NCBI GenBank assembly: GCA_018648645.1 | Contig: JABGQS010000014.1 | Location: forward strand, 1-64,000 | Direction: 5' to 3' | Source of the DNA: Clostridia bacterium | GTDB taxonomy: Bacteria; Bacillota; Clostridia; Christensenellales; SZUA-584 | DNA: 64,000 nucleotides | Shown: positions 1-61,428 of the stretch, in pieces | How the letters are laid out: every line of letters begins with the position of its first letter | How positions within the stretch are numbered: the first letter of the stretch is position 1 | Made by a program: the position numbers and the translations under genes | Notes under the pieces: model-generated | The model's input: the letters and a program-made list of their open reading frames with translations, nothing else | The model's database searches: none | What the model was told of the DNA's origin: nothing

Positions 1-353
1 ACAGATAGCTGCTAACCAATCAGCTGCTTAGATAAATGTAACCGAGGAATTTACACACTTATATGGACTTGACTAAATATATATATACAGGTATAGTACT
101 CCTTAATCAAAGAAAATACAAAAAATTAAATATAATCCCTTGCTTTATACAAATTATGGCCTATGCCATCATAAAAAAATACTTACATGGGTATTAATAC
201 CATATGGAGTAGTCATAAGGGCACATCACTACCTGTGGTTGCGATTACTGTATGTATCTACAAGTCATCCTGTGCTGTGCTTTCTTGACGATAACTTCAA
301 ATCGACAGGTATAAAGGATAAAAACCCCATTATGCTTCCGCTCTTTATGGTTT
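1..353. other. non-coding left edge
   Basis: No ribosome-site-preceded reading frame is visible. The DNA is A+T-rich up to about 140. From about 298 to 353 it holds a worn copy of the 147-bp repeat that follows: the text around 298-330 resembles the 'gttcgaatcggcaggcataaaa' end of the units with several changes. I see no promoter or RNA gene that I would defend here. Confidence 0.5.
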
Positions 354-797
354 CGGGATTCGCTCCGCAAGGCTTTGCCTTGCTATCACGCCCGGGCTTG
401 TGCCTGTTTCCTCCCTATTCGGTCGGAGGCACAAACCCGTTCGAATCGGCAGGCATAAAACAAAAAGCACCCCAGTAAGCAATGTATATTTACACTGTTC
501 CGGGATTCGCTCCGCAAGGCTACGCCTTGCTATCACGCCTGGGCTTGTGCCTGTTTCCTCCCTATTCGGTCGGCGGCACAAACCCGTTCGAATCGGCAGG
601 CATAAAAAGAGAAGCACCCCAGTAAGCAATGTATATTTACACTGTTCCGGGATTCGCTCCGCAAGGCTTTGCCTTGCTATCACGCCCGGGCTTGTGCCTT
701 TTCCCTCCCTATTCGGTCGGCGGCACAAACCCGTTCGAATCGGCAGGCATAAAACAAAAAGCACCCCAAAGGTAACAATTTTATATTAACTCTGGAC
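354..797. repeat. tandem array of three ~147-bp structured repeats
   Basis: Three near-identical units begin with CGGGATTCGCTCCGC at 354, 501 and 648 (periods 147, 147, 150), and a diverged fourth unit begins at 798. Each unit has a first hairpin GCAAGGC-(3 nt)-GCCTTGC whose loop varies (TTT or TAC) while the stem does not, and a second long hairpin GGGcTTGTGCC paired with GGCACAAaCCC. These are followed by a tRNA T-arm-like GTTCGAATC and an A-rich run ending AGCACCCC. That last run is also the left half of the tRNA-Arg terminator at 898-937. The array lies downstream of tRNA-Arg on the minus strand. It encodes no convincing protein. Function unknown; fixed stems with variable loops suggest structure in RNA or single-stranded DNA. 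Confidence 0.9.
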
Positions 798-897
798 CGG
801 GATTCGCTCCGCAAGGCTTTGCCTTGCTATCACGCCGGCTCGGGCATACGTGCCACTGGCACGTATGCTTGTCCTCGCGTTCGAATCCCTCCAGGCC
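798..897. repeat. diverged fourth repeat unit with perfect hairpin and mirrored tRNA-Arg tail
   Basis: The unit begins like the three upstream units up to 'tatcacgcc'. It then carries a perfect 11-bp hairpin (844-868) around the core ACGTGCCACTGGCACGT (848-864). The stretch 879-895, GTTCGAATCCCTCCAGG, is an exact inverted copy of the T-loop/acceptor end of the adjacent tRNA-Arg gene (944-960). The same 17-bp hairpin core recurs at 45467-45483, beside a mirrored tRNA-Tyr tail. Confidence 0.85.
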
Positions 898-937
898 AAA
901 AAAGAGAAGCACCCCATATGGGGTGCTTCTCTTTTTT
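898..937 (-). terminator. tRNA-Arg terminator, near-perfect 18-bp hairpin
   Basis: AAAAAAGAGAAGCACCCC and its exact inverse flank a 4-nt ATAT loop (916-919), directly after the encoded CCA of tRNA-Arg on the minus strand. Because both arms end in A/T runs it could stop transcription from either side. Confidence 0.85.
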
Positions 938-1013
938 GGCGTGCCTGGAGGGATTCGAACCCACGACCTTTTAGTTCGTAGCCAAACACTCTATCCAGCT
1001 GAGCTACAGGCAC
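937..1013 (-). tRNA. tRNA-Arg (ACG)
   Basis: The 77-nt cloverleaf on the minus strand has acceptor GTGCCTG/CAGGCAC, discriminator G and encoded CCA. The anticodon loop is CTACGAA, giving anticodon ACG (read as ICG after deamination). TadA, the deaminase that makes this inosine, is encoded at 37958-38416. The T stem GTGGG/CCCTC contains one T-T mismatch at the second pair. The 3' end is mirrored upstream (879-895). Confidence 0.95.
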
Positions 1014-1040
1014 ATACACCACGATTTTTGATGCTTTTCC

Positions 1041-1069
1041 ATTCTAATATAAACATCGGTAGATGTCAA
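1041..1069 (-). promoter_or_regulatory. promoter of tRNA-Arg
   Basis: On the minus strand TTGACA (1064-1069), a 17-bp spacer and TAGAAT (1041-1046) lie 28 bp ahead of the tRNA. Confidence 0.75.
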
Positions 1070-1088
1070 TAATAATACGATGATAATA

Positions 1089-1116
1089 TTGCTAATTGAA
1101 ATAAACGAGATATAAT
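1089..1116 (+). promoter_or_regulatory. candidate promoter of the molybdoenzyme operon
   Basis: TTGCTA, a 16-bp spacer and TATAAT (1111-1116), 43 bp before the first start codon and divergent from the tRNA-Arg promoter. Confidence 0.55.
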
Positions 1117-1158
1117 AGTACAATGCAATTATATAAAAAATAACTCTTTAGGAATCTT

Positions 1159-3666
1159 ATGATGACTAGAAAATTAGACGACCAAGAAAACCTGTGCGCC
1201 GGGTGTGATTACATGGTTAATACGTTTCACCCGATGCACTGCGGCGGCGCTTGTATGTTGAAGCTGCACATGAAGGACGGCGATGTCAGCAAGGTTACTT
1301 CTGCCGGAGATATACCTCGGCAAGGTTCATATGAGCATGATGAGTCGCTGGTGCCGATGCAGCGGCGTGCGTGCCTTTTGGGGCTGTCAGAAAAAAGACG
1401 CATATACGCTCCTGACAGACTCAAATACCCTTTGATGCAAACAAAACAAAGGGGCGATATAAGTGGATTTAAGCGCATATCGTGGGAGCAGGCGCTGGAT
1501 ACCGTTGCGGGCTGGTATAAGCAGATGATTGTGCGCAAAGATTCGCTCGGTTATTTGCCGATATGGGATGAAGGAGGGCTTGCCCCGTATCTTGGTACAT
1601 ATCTAAAGCGTTTCGGAAATCCTTCGGCAGGGAATGTGCAGGCCGCGATGTACGGCGCAATCGGCGATTATTATAATGTGATTGGAAACCCTGTTTTAGA
1701 TATGCTGAACGCTAGGTATATTGTAGTTTGGGCAAATGACAACGTTGCTGCGTTTCCGGTATCGTCATTTATTATGATGAAAGCTAAGGAAGCGGGAATC
1801 CCGATTACAGTTGTGGATTGCAGGTACACCGACACGGCATCCACGATGGCTACGGGAGAGGGCGAAGTACCGCGTCATTTATGCGTACGCCCGGGCACCG
1901 ACGGCGCTTTGATGGCGGCTATGTGCAACGTTATCTATCGAAAAAATCTGCACGATGAGAAGTTTATAAAGCAACATTGCTTTGGTTTCTATAAGAACGA
2001 CACGGTTGTCAGCAGATCAAAGAAGCGACATCCCATAACAAATGAACCGTATAAAGGACAAACGTTTACTGTGCCGCAAGGCTTGTCGTTTGTCGAGTAT
2101 CTAGATGAGCTGCAAGAGGAACACGGCGGGTACGAAGGTGTTTTAAACTGGGCGCAAAAACTCACTGGTGTGTCGAGCGTTGATATCGAGAACTTTGCAA
2201 TTCACTATGCAACGGCTGATCCGACATTTTTGTTCACGAGATATACGGGCGCACAGCGTACAAACAACGGTATGTACTTTTCGTGGATGTTGATTGCTCT
2301 GTCTGCAATGACAGGCAATATCAATAAGCGCGGAGGCGGCTTTGGCGAAGTCAGCATGAGCGACGGTTATAAAATCGAAATGCAGAATCCACGCGAGCAC
2401 TCACGAGCAAAGGAATATGAGCCAATACTGTTTTCCGGGTTTCGGCACAGCGATGTGCTGCTTAGCGGAAGTGACGGACGTACAAAAGCGCAGCTTCGAG
2501 ACGATGTGATGCAGATGAACGGGATTGACCTTGGAGAAGATGCGCAGCTTTGTCTTGAAATGTACGTTAGAGGCGCTGTCGGCGGCGATGTAATGAACTC
2601 TACTCAAAACGTTAACAAAAGCAAAATTGCGTGGAAGCGGTTTAAGCACGTCGTTTCGTATGAGCGCTTTTTGACTTCGACGGCATCTTGGTCAGATATC
2701 GTGCTGCCGACTGTAGCCAATTTTGAGGAATCATATTTTAACTCTCAGGTTGTTTCGGACAGCTTTGTGGTAAACGGTCCGATTGAGCCAATGTATGAAG
2801 CGAAGCCTGACGAGTGGATAAACGAGCAGATTGCCAAGAGGCTTGATATTGACTACGTGCGCAAACGCAAGCCGGGCAAGAAGGCGATGAAGAAGCAGTG
2901 GGAGAAAGCCAAAGTTCCAAAAGAGTATTTGCAAATCAATCCGAAGTTCAAAAAACCCGAGTTTGATGAGCTTGTTGAAGCGGGCAGCTTGCAGCTTCCT
3001 GTGCCGCCGGAGAAGTCGCTGATTCACACAGCCAAGATAAGGCAGGGGGAGTTTGACACGGATACAGGAAGAATCAATTTCTATTCGCCTTATTTTGCCC
3101 AGCGAGGCCGCGCGGTTCTAAAAAGTCCGAGAGTACGTTATGTGCCGCTTAAAGGCGGATACGAGCATGTATTGGAGAACGGCGGGGTAGTTGGTGCAAA
3201 GAATATAAAGTACATGCTGCAGTTCATTACGCCGCATGTGCGTCAAAGAGCGCTGTCAACGTATGGCAACATGCCTGTTGTGCAAGAACAACACGTACAC
3301 GCTGTAGAAATATCGGAAGTTGATGCAGACACGCGCGATATAGCTGACGGCGACATTGTTTACGTGTTTACCGATTTTGGGTGCATCAAGCTGCCTGCAA
3401 AGCTGACGAAGCGCATTATGCCCGGTGTCGTGTCGATTGGTCAGGGCATGTGGTATAGGGCGAGCAAGAGCGAAACGTATGAAGTGTGGCTGGATATAAA
3501 AGGTGAAGGCAACCCGGAGAAGCACGTAGTGCCTGTCGATATTGGCGGTTGTGTCAATACGATATCAAAAGATAGGAACTGCGGTATACTCGACCCGTTC
3601 TTCGAGGGGATGGGGCTGAACGCAGGCGGAGAGCTTTGCGAGATCAGCAAAGATAAACCAATATAG
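1159..3666 (+). CDS. molybdopterin oxidoreductase, DMSO reductase family, catalytic subunit
   Basis: 835 residues with the fold markers of bis-molybdopterin-guanine-dinucleotide enzymes: an N-terminal iron-sulphur site, RISWEQALD near residue 113, a central molybdopterin region, and a C-terminal cofactor-binding domain. The cluster site reads H24-x3-C28-x3-C32 with a fourth ligand at C72 in RRACLLG. His in the first place is the NarG-type arrangement, whereas DmsA has Cys. C13 and C16 lie just before and could be alternative ligands. GDYYN near residue 173 is a possible position for the metal ligand, but I cannot fix it. There is no twin-arginine signal and no anchor or TorD chaperone gene nearby, so a soluble cytoplasmic reductase or dehydrogenase is inferred; the substrate is unknown. 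The ferredoxin subunit follows after 21 bp. Start: ATG1159, with ATG1162 as an alternative. Confidence 0.85.
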   Translation: MMTRKLDDQENLCAGCDYMVNTFHPMHCGGACMLKLHMKDGDVSKVTSAGDIPRQGSYEHDESLVPMQRRACLLGLSEKRRIYAPDRLKYPLMQTKQRGDISGFKRISWEQALDTVAGWYKQMIVRKDSLGYLPIWDEGGLAPYLGTYLKRFGNPSAGNVQAAMYGAIGDYYNVIGNPVLDMLNARYIVVWANDNVAAFPVSSFIMMKAKEAGIPITVVDCRYTDTASTMATGEGEVPRHLCVRPGTDGALMAAMCNVIYRKNLHDEKFIKQHCFGFYKNDTVVSRSKKRHPITNEPYKGQTFTVPQGLSFVEYLDELQEEHGGYEGVLNWAQKLTGVSSVDIENFAIHYATADPTFLFTRYTGAQRTNNGMYFSWMLIALSAMTGNINKRGGGFGEVSMSDGYKIEMQNPREHSRAKEYEPILFSGFRHSDVLLSGSDGRTKAQLRDDVMQMNGIDLGEDAQLCLEMYVRGAVGGDVMNSTQNVNKSKIAWKRFKHVVSYERFLTSTASWSDIVLPTVANFEESYFNSQVVSDSFVVNGPIEPMYEAKPDEWINEQIAKRLDIDYVRKRKPGKKAMKKQWEKAKVPKEYLQINPKFKKPEFDELVEAGSLQLPVPPEKSLIHTAKIRQGEFDTDTGRINFYSPYFAQRGRAVLKSPRVRYVPLKGGYEHVLENGGVVGAKNIKYMLQFITPHVRQRALSTYGNMPVVQEQHVHAVEISEVDADTRDIADGDIVYVFTDFGCIKLPAKLTKRIMPGVVSIGQGMWYRASKSETYEVWLDIKGEGNPEKHVVPVDIGGCVNTISKDRNCGILDPFFEGMGLNAGGELCEISKDKPI

Positions 3667-45347: not shown

Positions 45348-45463
45348 AAAATAAACTTTAAGGATTATGGGAGCGAAGGGAGGTTACGCTAACCTAAACC
45401 CGACCAAACTGCCCACGCCTGAGCGTTAATATAACCAAAAACTAAACAAAAGCCACCTCACTA

Positions 45464-45488
45464 AAAACGTGCCACTGGCACGTTTTTT
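45464..45488. terminator. hairpin terminator containing the shared 17-bp palindrome
   Basis: ACGTGCCACTGGCACGT (45467-45483) flanked by AAA and TTTTTT, 120 bp after the HEPN gene. The identical 17-bp core lies at 848-864. Confidence 0.75.
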
Positions 45489-45508
45489 ATGCTACGCATA
45501 CCGTTCGC

Positions 45509-45524
45509 TTCGACTCCACCTCCC
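45509..45524. repeat. mirrored copy of the tRNA-Tyr 3' end
   Basis: TTCGACTCCACCTCCC is the exact inverse of 45577-45592 inside tRNA-Tyr, placed symmetrically across the tRNA terminator. The same layout exists for tRNA-Arg at 879-960. Confidence 0.9.
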
Positions 45525-45569: not shown

Positions 45570-45654
<85 letters not shown>

Positions 45655-61187: not shown

Positions 61188-61207
61188 GCAGGCATCGCCT
61201 GCACATT

Positions 61208-61243
61208 CTGTTCGCGAAATTCACATTATGCGGGCAGTTTTTT
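61208..61243 (+). terminator. first of two tandem terminator hairpins after tRNA-Trp
   Basis: CTGTTCGC paired with GCGGGCAG, then TTTTTT. A further GCAGGC-atc-GCCTGC hairpin lies just upstream. Confidence 0.75.
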
Positions 61244-61299
61244 ATTACCCGCGCTGTTGCTTATAATTAGAAATTTCTGAATGCTTGAAGCCGGTTACG

Positions 61300-61335
61300 C
61301 TGTTCGCGAAGTTAATTCCTCGAGGACAGTTTTTT
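61300..61335 (+). terminator. second tandem terminator, sharing sequence with the first
   Basis: CTGTTCGCGAAG and CTCGAGGACAG, then TTTTTT. The 11-nt CTGTTCGCGAA and the AGTTTTTTATTAC tail repeat those of 61208-61249. Confidence 0.7.
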
Positions 61336-61428
61336 ATTACTAAAAAATACTCATATTGTGCTTGCATGTGCTATTACTAATCGCCCGGTTCAAAGATATC
61401 TCATGTGCAAAGTGAATAATCTATTTCG

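Follow-up and report, generated by a model that had tools for sequence, protein, structure and literature searches.

A tandem array beside a clostridial tRNA-Arg gene is probably a run of small insertion elements of the tRNA-linked-repeat kind

A tandem array beside a tRNA-Arg gene in Clostridia bacterium assembly GCA_018648645.1 is probably a run of small insertion elements of the tRNA-linked-repeat (TLR) kind, each ~85-150 bp long, non-coding and non-autonomous. The array lies in the 64,000-nucleotide stretch of contig JABGQS010000014.1 (positions 1 to 64,000) that was analysed here and is called the window. A preliminary description of this DNA, made from the sequence alone, missed that the ends of each unit copy the specific tRNA adjacent to it, both directly and in inverted form, a pattern common to at least eight tRNA families (Gln, Leu, Pro, His, Ser, Arg, Lys and Asp). 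The variation of the hairpin loops is the least telling feature of the units.

The repeat finder places four units at about 350-896, with start spacings of 147, 147 and 150 bp and with units 2-4 nearly identical to one another. TRF reports 350-836 with a period of 147 and 92% matches, and the tandem array is thus recovered by two tools. The preliminary description had recognised the array and its 147-150 bp spacing, but it counted three units where there are four cores, the fourth lying at 798-889. The array is convergent to the tRNA-Arg(ACG) gene, and the minus strand, on which transcripts were to be sought, is indeed the tRNA strand and the sense to examine (Table 1). The stem GCAAGGC/GCCTTGC with its loop of TTT or TAC is present as described. 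In place of the quoted pairing GGGCTTGTGCC/GGCACAAACCC, the P2 hairpin of the tRNA-proximal unit has GCATACGTGCC/GGCACGTATGC. The T-loop-like unit ends in the window are copies of the neighbouring tRNA: GTTCGAATC, rightly likened to a T-loop, is in the proximal unit part of an inverted copy of the tRNA-Arg T-arm, and the terminator-like AGCACCCC is one half of the palindromic terminator of the same gene. The open frames across the array have no support as genes and stay open because the period is divisible by three; the array is non-coding, as had been proposed. An Rfam search of window positions 1-3000 at E up to 5 gave only the tRNA as a real match, and the molybdopterin gene of the window locus was found in one of 41 genomes, the source genome itself.

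Table 1. Features of the array, the adjoining tRNA-Arg gene and one decayed unit in the window
Feature	Position	Strand	Evidence
tRNA-Arg(ACG), source of the copied 3' end	937..1013	-	ARAGORN; Rfam tRNA 62.9 bits
Palindromic terminator, tRNA to proximal unit	892..943	.	Inverted repeat, 26-nt arms 892-917/918-943, 96% complementary, 0 nt apart
Unit 1, tRNA-proximal: X' - P2 - GGCGTGATAGC - P3 - GGAG - X2	799..896	-	Model R1 match 798-889, 73.2 bits, E 2.9e-16; fold z -6.91
X' of unit 1, inverted copy of tRNA T-arm and part of acceptor strand	879..896	-	18 nt, 100% complementary to 943-960 within tRNA
P2 hairpin of unit 1	837..878	-	Inverted repeat 844-855/857-868; fold
Conserved core GGCGTGATAGC of unit 1	826..836	-	Exact pattern match; invariant or nearly so in alignment A2
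P3 hairpin (GCAAGGC/GCCTTGC) of unit 1	811..827	-	Sequence; G-C closing pairs in 30/30 units
GGAG directly before X2 of unit 1	807-810	-	Sequence
X2 of unit 1	799..806	-	Only first 8 nt (CGAATCCC) still match tRNA; not full length
Unit 2	644..790	-	R1 match 648-743, E 2.6e-10; repeat D1
Unit 3, P3 loop TAC on + strand	497..643	-	R1 match 501-596, E 1.9e-10; repeat D1
Unit 4, distal	350..496	-	R1 match 354-449, E 2.5e-10; repeat D1
Decayed unit behind tRNA-Tyr(GTA) 45570-45654	45447..45524	-	Long X' and P2, without GGCGTGATAGC core; inverted match 19/24 nt to tRNA-Tyr 3' end

Further copies occur throughout the source genome, where model R1 gives 19 matches at E up to 10, 13 of them below 1e-6. 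A survey of tRNA 3' flanks located units behind Arg-ACG, Gly-CCC, Leu-CAA, Leu-CAG and Leu-TAA and decayed units behind Gln-CTG and Tyr-GTA, while many other tRNAs had none; related units thus lie 3' of six tRNA genes besides tRNA-Arg(ACG). Distal units are the more decayed; in the Leu-CAG array, for instance, the tRNA end is closely matched by its first copy but not by its second. Because related units are found elsewhere in this genome and in other genomes, a chance origin of the repeat is excluded. The near-identity of window units 2-4 would suit a simple duplication event local to the tRNA and of no wider significance, the outcome foreseen in the preliminary description had there been neither further copies nor covariation; both were found, and related units 3' of other tRNAs in the source and many other genomes refute this explanation, to which we give practically no credence.

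Read on the tRNA strand, the order is tRNA, CCA, a spacer (often with a terminator), X', P2, the core GGCGTGATAGC, P3, GGAG and X2. X' is GGGAYTYGAAC, the complement of the T-arm GTTCRARTCCC, and X2 runs from CRARTCCC onward, starting in the T-loop and continuing through CCA in full-length cases. Alignment A2 of 30 units, the folds and the pair counts all show X' pairing with X2 as an outer stem, P1, and the unit body is branched with three stems. The outer stem holds a mismatched spacer, AAC against GGAG, and the end hairpin P3 is expandable, being replaced in locus L204 by a stretch of well over 100 nt. Folds of five units gave z from -4.4 to -6.9, and among their free-energy structures P1 and P2 are consistent while P3 and the junction vary. 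In A2, 91.3% of cells are paired, compared with 25-47% in slid controls, and double changes occur in 9 of the 16 pairs. These amount to 49 double-change cells against 15.4 (sd 5.3) after shuffling, with none of 500 shuffles as high, which bears out the earlier suggestion that stems are kept while loops vary and supplies the covariation across related genomes that it called for. Model R1 was built from units with the exact core pattern together with the units of the source genome, and the invariance of the core is therefore partly a product of how the units were chosen. As to whether the folded molecule is RNA or single-stranded DNA, the data fit both without separating them.

The agreement between unit ends and host tRNA carries most weight where X' was chosen independently of X2. 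On this basis, both variable T-loop positions agree in 54 of 55 units, and 41 of the 55 show full 8/8 pairing; the count leaves out 12 of 67 matches in which the pattern found no X', among them two that run off the contig and others with one changed base. A second search is biased because it took as X' whatever best complemented the T-arm of the unit itself, and the permutation performed on it shares this bias. With this biased choice X' follows 11 T-arm variants, and the rare T-arms CAAGTCCT, CAAGTCCG, CGATTCTC and CGATTCCC have an exactly complementary X'. Four of the 68 rows in the 11-variant set were dropped as another tRNA lay nearer, and two 5'-truncated units stand outside the X' count. 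Tandem and near-identical units among the loci (for example L126, L152 and L162) mean that the counts are not all independent. As to the direct copy, 32 of the 42 tRNA-linked matches have a tail identical to the tRNA end for the full 21 nt, through CCA, and the remaining 10 match it over 7-17 nt. Inverted matches of at least 12 nt were seen in 24 of 46 units, against 31% for other tRNAs sharing the T-arm start, and the sequences suggest that X' is copied from its target. One exception is L171, where X' fits CAAGTCCC whereas its tRNA and X2 read CGAGTCCC; this mismatch would fit a recent arrival.

To describe the distribution of the family, the exact core pattern was searched over one genome per species. 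This gave 57 matches in 47 loci, mostly in Clostridia-type species genomes, the carriers being Peptococcaceae, Desulfosporosinus, Dichloromethanomonas, Lutispora, Gracilibacter, gut and rumen Clostridia and other Bacillota or bacteria records. The units on one contig labelled Oligosphaeraceae resemble those of a Peptococcaceae record, and this contig may be mis-binned. A same-strand tRNA lies within 600 nt upstream of 42 of the 57 matches, and for 13 of the remaining 15 the available upstream sequence is no longer than 600 nt. The last two have more than 600 nt and no tRNA, which counts against insertion at tRNA genes. Opposite-strand tRNAs were downstream in none of the 57 and upstream in one. 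Loci may hold several copies (four in the window, three in L128, two each in L139 and L169), and units also occur inside tRNA operons, between tRNAs. In a sample of the class, 11 of 291 genomes had a match, the weaker ones being uncertain, and in one small-genome genus units were present in 12 of 61 genomes; six units were counted in genome G311, five in G332 and one in G295. Viral contigs had no exact match to two patterns, and phages and plasmids gave short partial matches only, at most 42% of the query and none covering 80%.

Some loci depart from the common form. At L193 (genome G124), beside tRNA-Thr(CGT), the copied stretch begins further 5', at the anticodon stem (AGAGCAATTGATTCGTAA), which gives the impression of a related element aiming at a different point of the tRNA. 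At L197 (G186), beside tRNA-Arg(TCT), a divergent relative has GGGCGTGTAGC and GTAG in place of GGCGTGATAGC and GGAG, so that the family is wider than model R1. The 5'-truncated unit beside tRNA-Gln at L125 (JAFQEA010000016.1) is joined to a series of small hairpins in which GATGATATACA recurs and which apparently belong to another repeat family.

Comparison of orthologous tRNA genes gives filled and empty sites. In a shared Pro-Arg-His cluster, a unit follows tRNA-Pro in L130, L141 and L161, whereas L138 has tRNA-Arg after 21 nt instead; behind tRNA-His there is a unit in L130, L138 and L153, a truncated one in L141 and none in L161. The Lutispora tRNA-Arg(TCG) has a unit in L167 and L206 (the same genome or nearly so) and none in L160. 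At the orthologous greA site of the 61-genome genus, the 30 loci examined have the tRNA only in the three known carriers, and hence there is no empty site. At strain level no gain or loss was seen. Two units of G332, behind Ser-GGA and Leu-AAG, are 89% identical in the body, while X' differs at 3 of 8 positions and the T-arm at 2 of 8, the X' of the Leu-AAG unit having one mismatch to its tRNA.

An alternative explanation is that the unit serves the host as an RNA, being co-transcribed with the tRNA and either processed into a small RNA or acting on tRNA 3' maturation, with the copied end read by the processing enzymes and the family spread by descent and gene conversion. Units between tRNAs inside operons, compensatory changes that preserve structure and a tRNA-Ser site common to four genera (L133, L147, L151 and L165) all agree with this, although such shared sites fit long upkeep as well as mobility. 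According to PMC8144298, three rRNA-linked TLRs of Escherichia coli are transcribed and bind Hfq and CsrA in vitro, which points the same way. Contrary to what such a role would lead us to expect, 49 of the 61 genomes in the carrier-containing genus have no units, orthologous tRNAs without a unit exist, the source genome contains many decayed copies, and several units have lost X2 beyond its first 8-13 nt, so that the copied tail is not strictly kept. We regard a host-serving RNA as unlikely, though deserving of serious attention.

The insertion element that we prefer is supported by the position of the units behind tRNAs of many families, by ends that follow the target, by covariation, patchy presence and filled as well as empty orthologous sites, by like bodies at different tRNAs of one genome, and by 5'-truncated units whose 3' junction is exact. 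For it the following route can be proposed. The element would enter the tRNA gene within the T-loop between bases 55 and 56 (between GGTT and CRARTCCC), a position deduced from the start of the direct repeat, with GGAG marking the downstream junction. X', complementary to 10-11 nt of the T-arm, would either align the folded strand with its target or be copied from it. The tRNA would stay whole because its 3' half, from C56 through CCA, is present on both sides after insertion. That copied half would then flank the body as a direct repeat, from which unequal exchange could generate tandem arrays whose distal units decay.

Candidate mobilising enzymes were compared between carriers and non-carriers of the 61-genome genus. 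Reverse transcriptase (RVT_1) was found in 2 of 12 carriers and 15 of 49 non-carriers, Y1 transposase in 2 of 12 and 4 of 49, and tyrosine recombinase in 12 of 12 and 48 of 49, and none of the three is associated with carriage. Ten of the 12 carriers lack reverse transcriptase and ten lack Y1 transposase, so that neither is a present requirement; a housekeeping recombinase as the agent would be compatible with its presence in all 12. Clustering of 904 open frames from 95 loci yielded no partner or mobilising gene, the recurrent neighbour families looking like shared synteny or frames derived from the arrays.

These figures also bear on two further mechanisms. The T-arm is a common integrase site, and integron attC sites fold with paired outer boxes (GTTRRRY/RYYYAAC), a mismatched spacer and a variable end hairpin. 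It could be imagined that a tyrosine recombinase, perhaps the housekeeping Xer, introduces a folded single-stranded unit resembling an attC cassette into the T-arm by recombination. The units do form tandem arrays and share the paired outer stem, the mismatched spacer (AAC against GGAG) and the expandable end hairpin, and every carrier has a tyrosine recombinase. However, so do nearly all non-carriers, and G311 and G295 have one each for six units and one unit, respectively. The Clostridia junctions read GGAG followed by CRARTCCC, and GAACGGG, rather than the GTTRRRY core; no frame lies between the sites and no integrase is among the recurrent neighbours. A circular cassette would moreover bring a foreign acceptor strand, yet X2 agrees with the tRNA in every tRNA family seen, and we consider this route improbable. 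The other mechanism is a bacterial SINE, with an RNA copied by reverse transcriptase primed at a T-loop nick. An exact 3' junction beside a variable 5' side is what this would produce, and L125 and L229 are 5'-truncated units that lack X' and the front of P2 while their 3' junction is exact; the scarcity of reverse transcriptase among the carriers, and its absence from G311 and from G332 with its five units, make it very improbable.

The closest known likeness of the insertion element is to the TLRs of E. coli, which include the 178-bp tyrT repeats and RtT RNA. PMC8144298, published in 2021, describes 22 TLRs in ten loci; they were first seen in 1978 and lie directly 3' of a tRNA or rRNA gene in one to several tandem copies, the last 18-19 bp being identical to the upstream gene's 3' end. 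By the same account they had no known function before the Hfq and CsrA binding described above. The Clostridia units likewise lie 3' of a same-strand tRNA, copy its 3' end and occur in tandem, within the one to five copies per locus expected of a TLR, with the qualification that the window's own proximal unit retains only about 8 nt of the copied end. Among eight E. coli K-12 tRNA regions checked, a direct copy was seen at tyrV, lysV and the arg genes. In the RtT RNA (RF00391) consensus the outer stem is formed by the copied tail and an inverted partner, and the argV unit folds alike, with hairpins and then GAGT between the two strands of its outer stem; at lysV, argQ and argZ no inverted partner of at least 7 nt was found. 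The E. coli copies begin at AATCC or ATCC, unlike the Clostridia copies, which begin at CRARTCC. R1 has no match in the tyrV TLRs, and the Rfam RtT model, which gives three matches in the E. coli locus L287, has none in window positions 1-3000 or in L160, L165, L169, L153, L139, L142, L193, L099, L101, L197 and L204. The units matched no Rfam family in these searches. We place the Clostridia units with the TLRs by architecture and, as the models do not cross-match, in a different family by sequence.

Two other systems share individual traits. Casposons (PMC4046053) are among the elements that integrate at tRNA 3' ends. Their insertion duplicates the target, as insertion of the units would do here. 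The Clostridia units differ from them in being gene-free, ~85-150 bp long and without terminal inverted repeats of their own. REP sequences carry the tetranucleotide GGAG or GTAG next to a hairpin, and the units resemble REP/BIME elements in being short, palindromic and non-coding with GGAG or GTAG beside a hairpin. They differ in that few carriers have a Y1 transposase and in that they copy their target, which REPs are not known to do.

No report of the Clostridia units was found in the literature, judged by titles and the starts of abstracts, which is no proof of their being unpublished; the tRNA passages of three structured-RNA papers contain no such units, and no account was met of how E. 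coli TLRs arise. Within one genus the Clostridia family has both carriers and non-carriers; it is found at many different tRNAs, its orthologous sites may be filled or empty, and a strict rule links the ends of a unit to its tRNA. Because of the carriers and non-carriers, the empty sites and the end rule, insertion with target copying and a host-serving RNA can be directly tested against each other, and the origin of the E. coli TLRs could now be tested via this family. It is conceivable, if on balance doubtful, that we are dealing with a mobile element without genes that recognises its target through base pairing: its folded strand would carry an 11-nt complement of the T-arm GTTCRARTCCC, insert between T-loop bases 55 and 56, renew address and tail at each new tRNA and rely on host enzymes only. 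The E. coli TLRs and the Clostridia family would then be two branches of one old class of tRNA-addressed elements. Were insertion addressed by the T-arm complement true, gene-free elements would have a hitherto unrecognised means of reaching conserved targets harmlessly.

Several minor observations were made in the source genome. At L043 (C1: about 880-1240) and L038 (C20:2671-2870) the units face a tRNA-Ser-like 3' end (CTCTTTCTCCGCCA) with the rest of the tRNA missing, and they may mark the distal boundaries of islands that entered tRNA-Ser genes. At L044 (C39:1-1616) two unit copies and a third core flank a 367-aa frame (467-1570), giving the look of a gene between units. Judged by eye from the flanks of L107, L108 and L110, a tyrosine-recombinase-like frame lies downstream of tRNA-Ser(GGA), and large serine recombinase-like ends lie downstream of tRNA-Ser(GCT) and (TGA). 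L120 (C1:193416, tRNA-Met) and L121 (C18:3389, tRNA-Arg CCG) hold repeats of a second kind, whose body does not resemble that of the units reported here. In them a copy of the tRNA end, running from TTCGAATCC through CCA, lies ~180 nt downstream and follows CTGACG..CTCCCGTC. A third kind, seen at L118 (tRNA-Arg CCT), at L123 (tRNA-Val CAC) and at 61188-61400 of the window behind tRNA-Trp, consists of ~100-bp runs that contain a terminator hairpin, of which GCAGCGTGACGCTGC is an example; those behind Arg-CCT include partial copies of the tRNA end GTGTGCCA.
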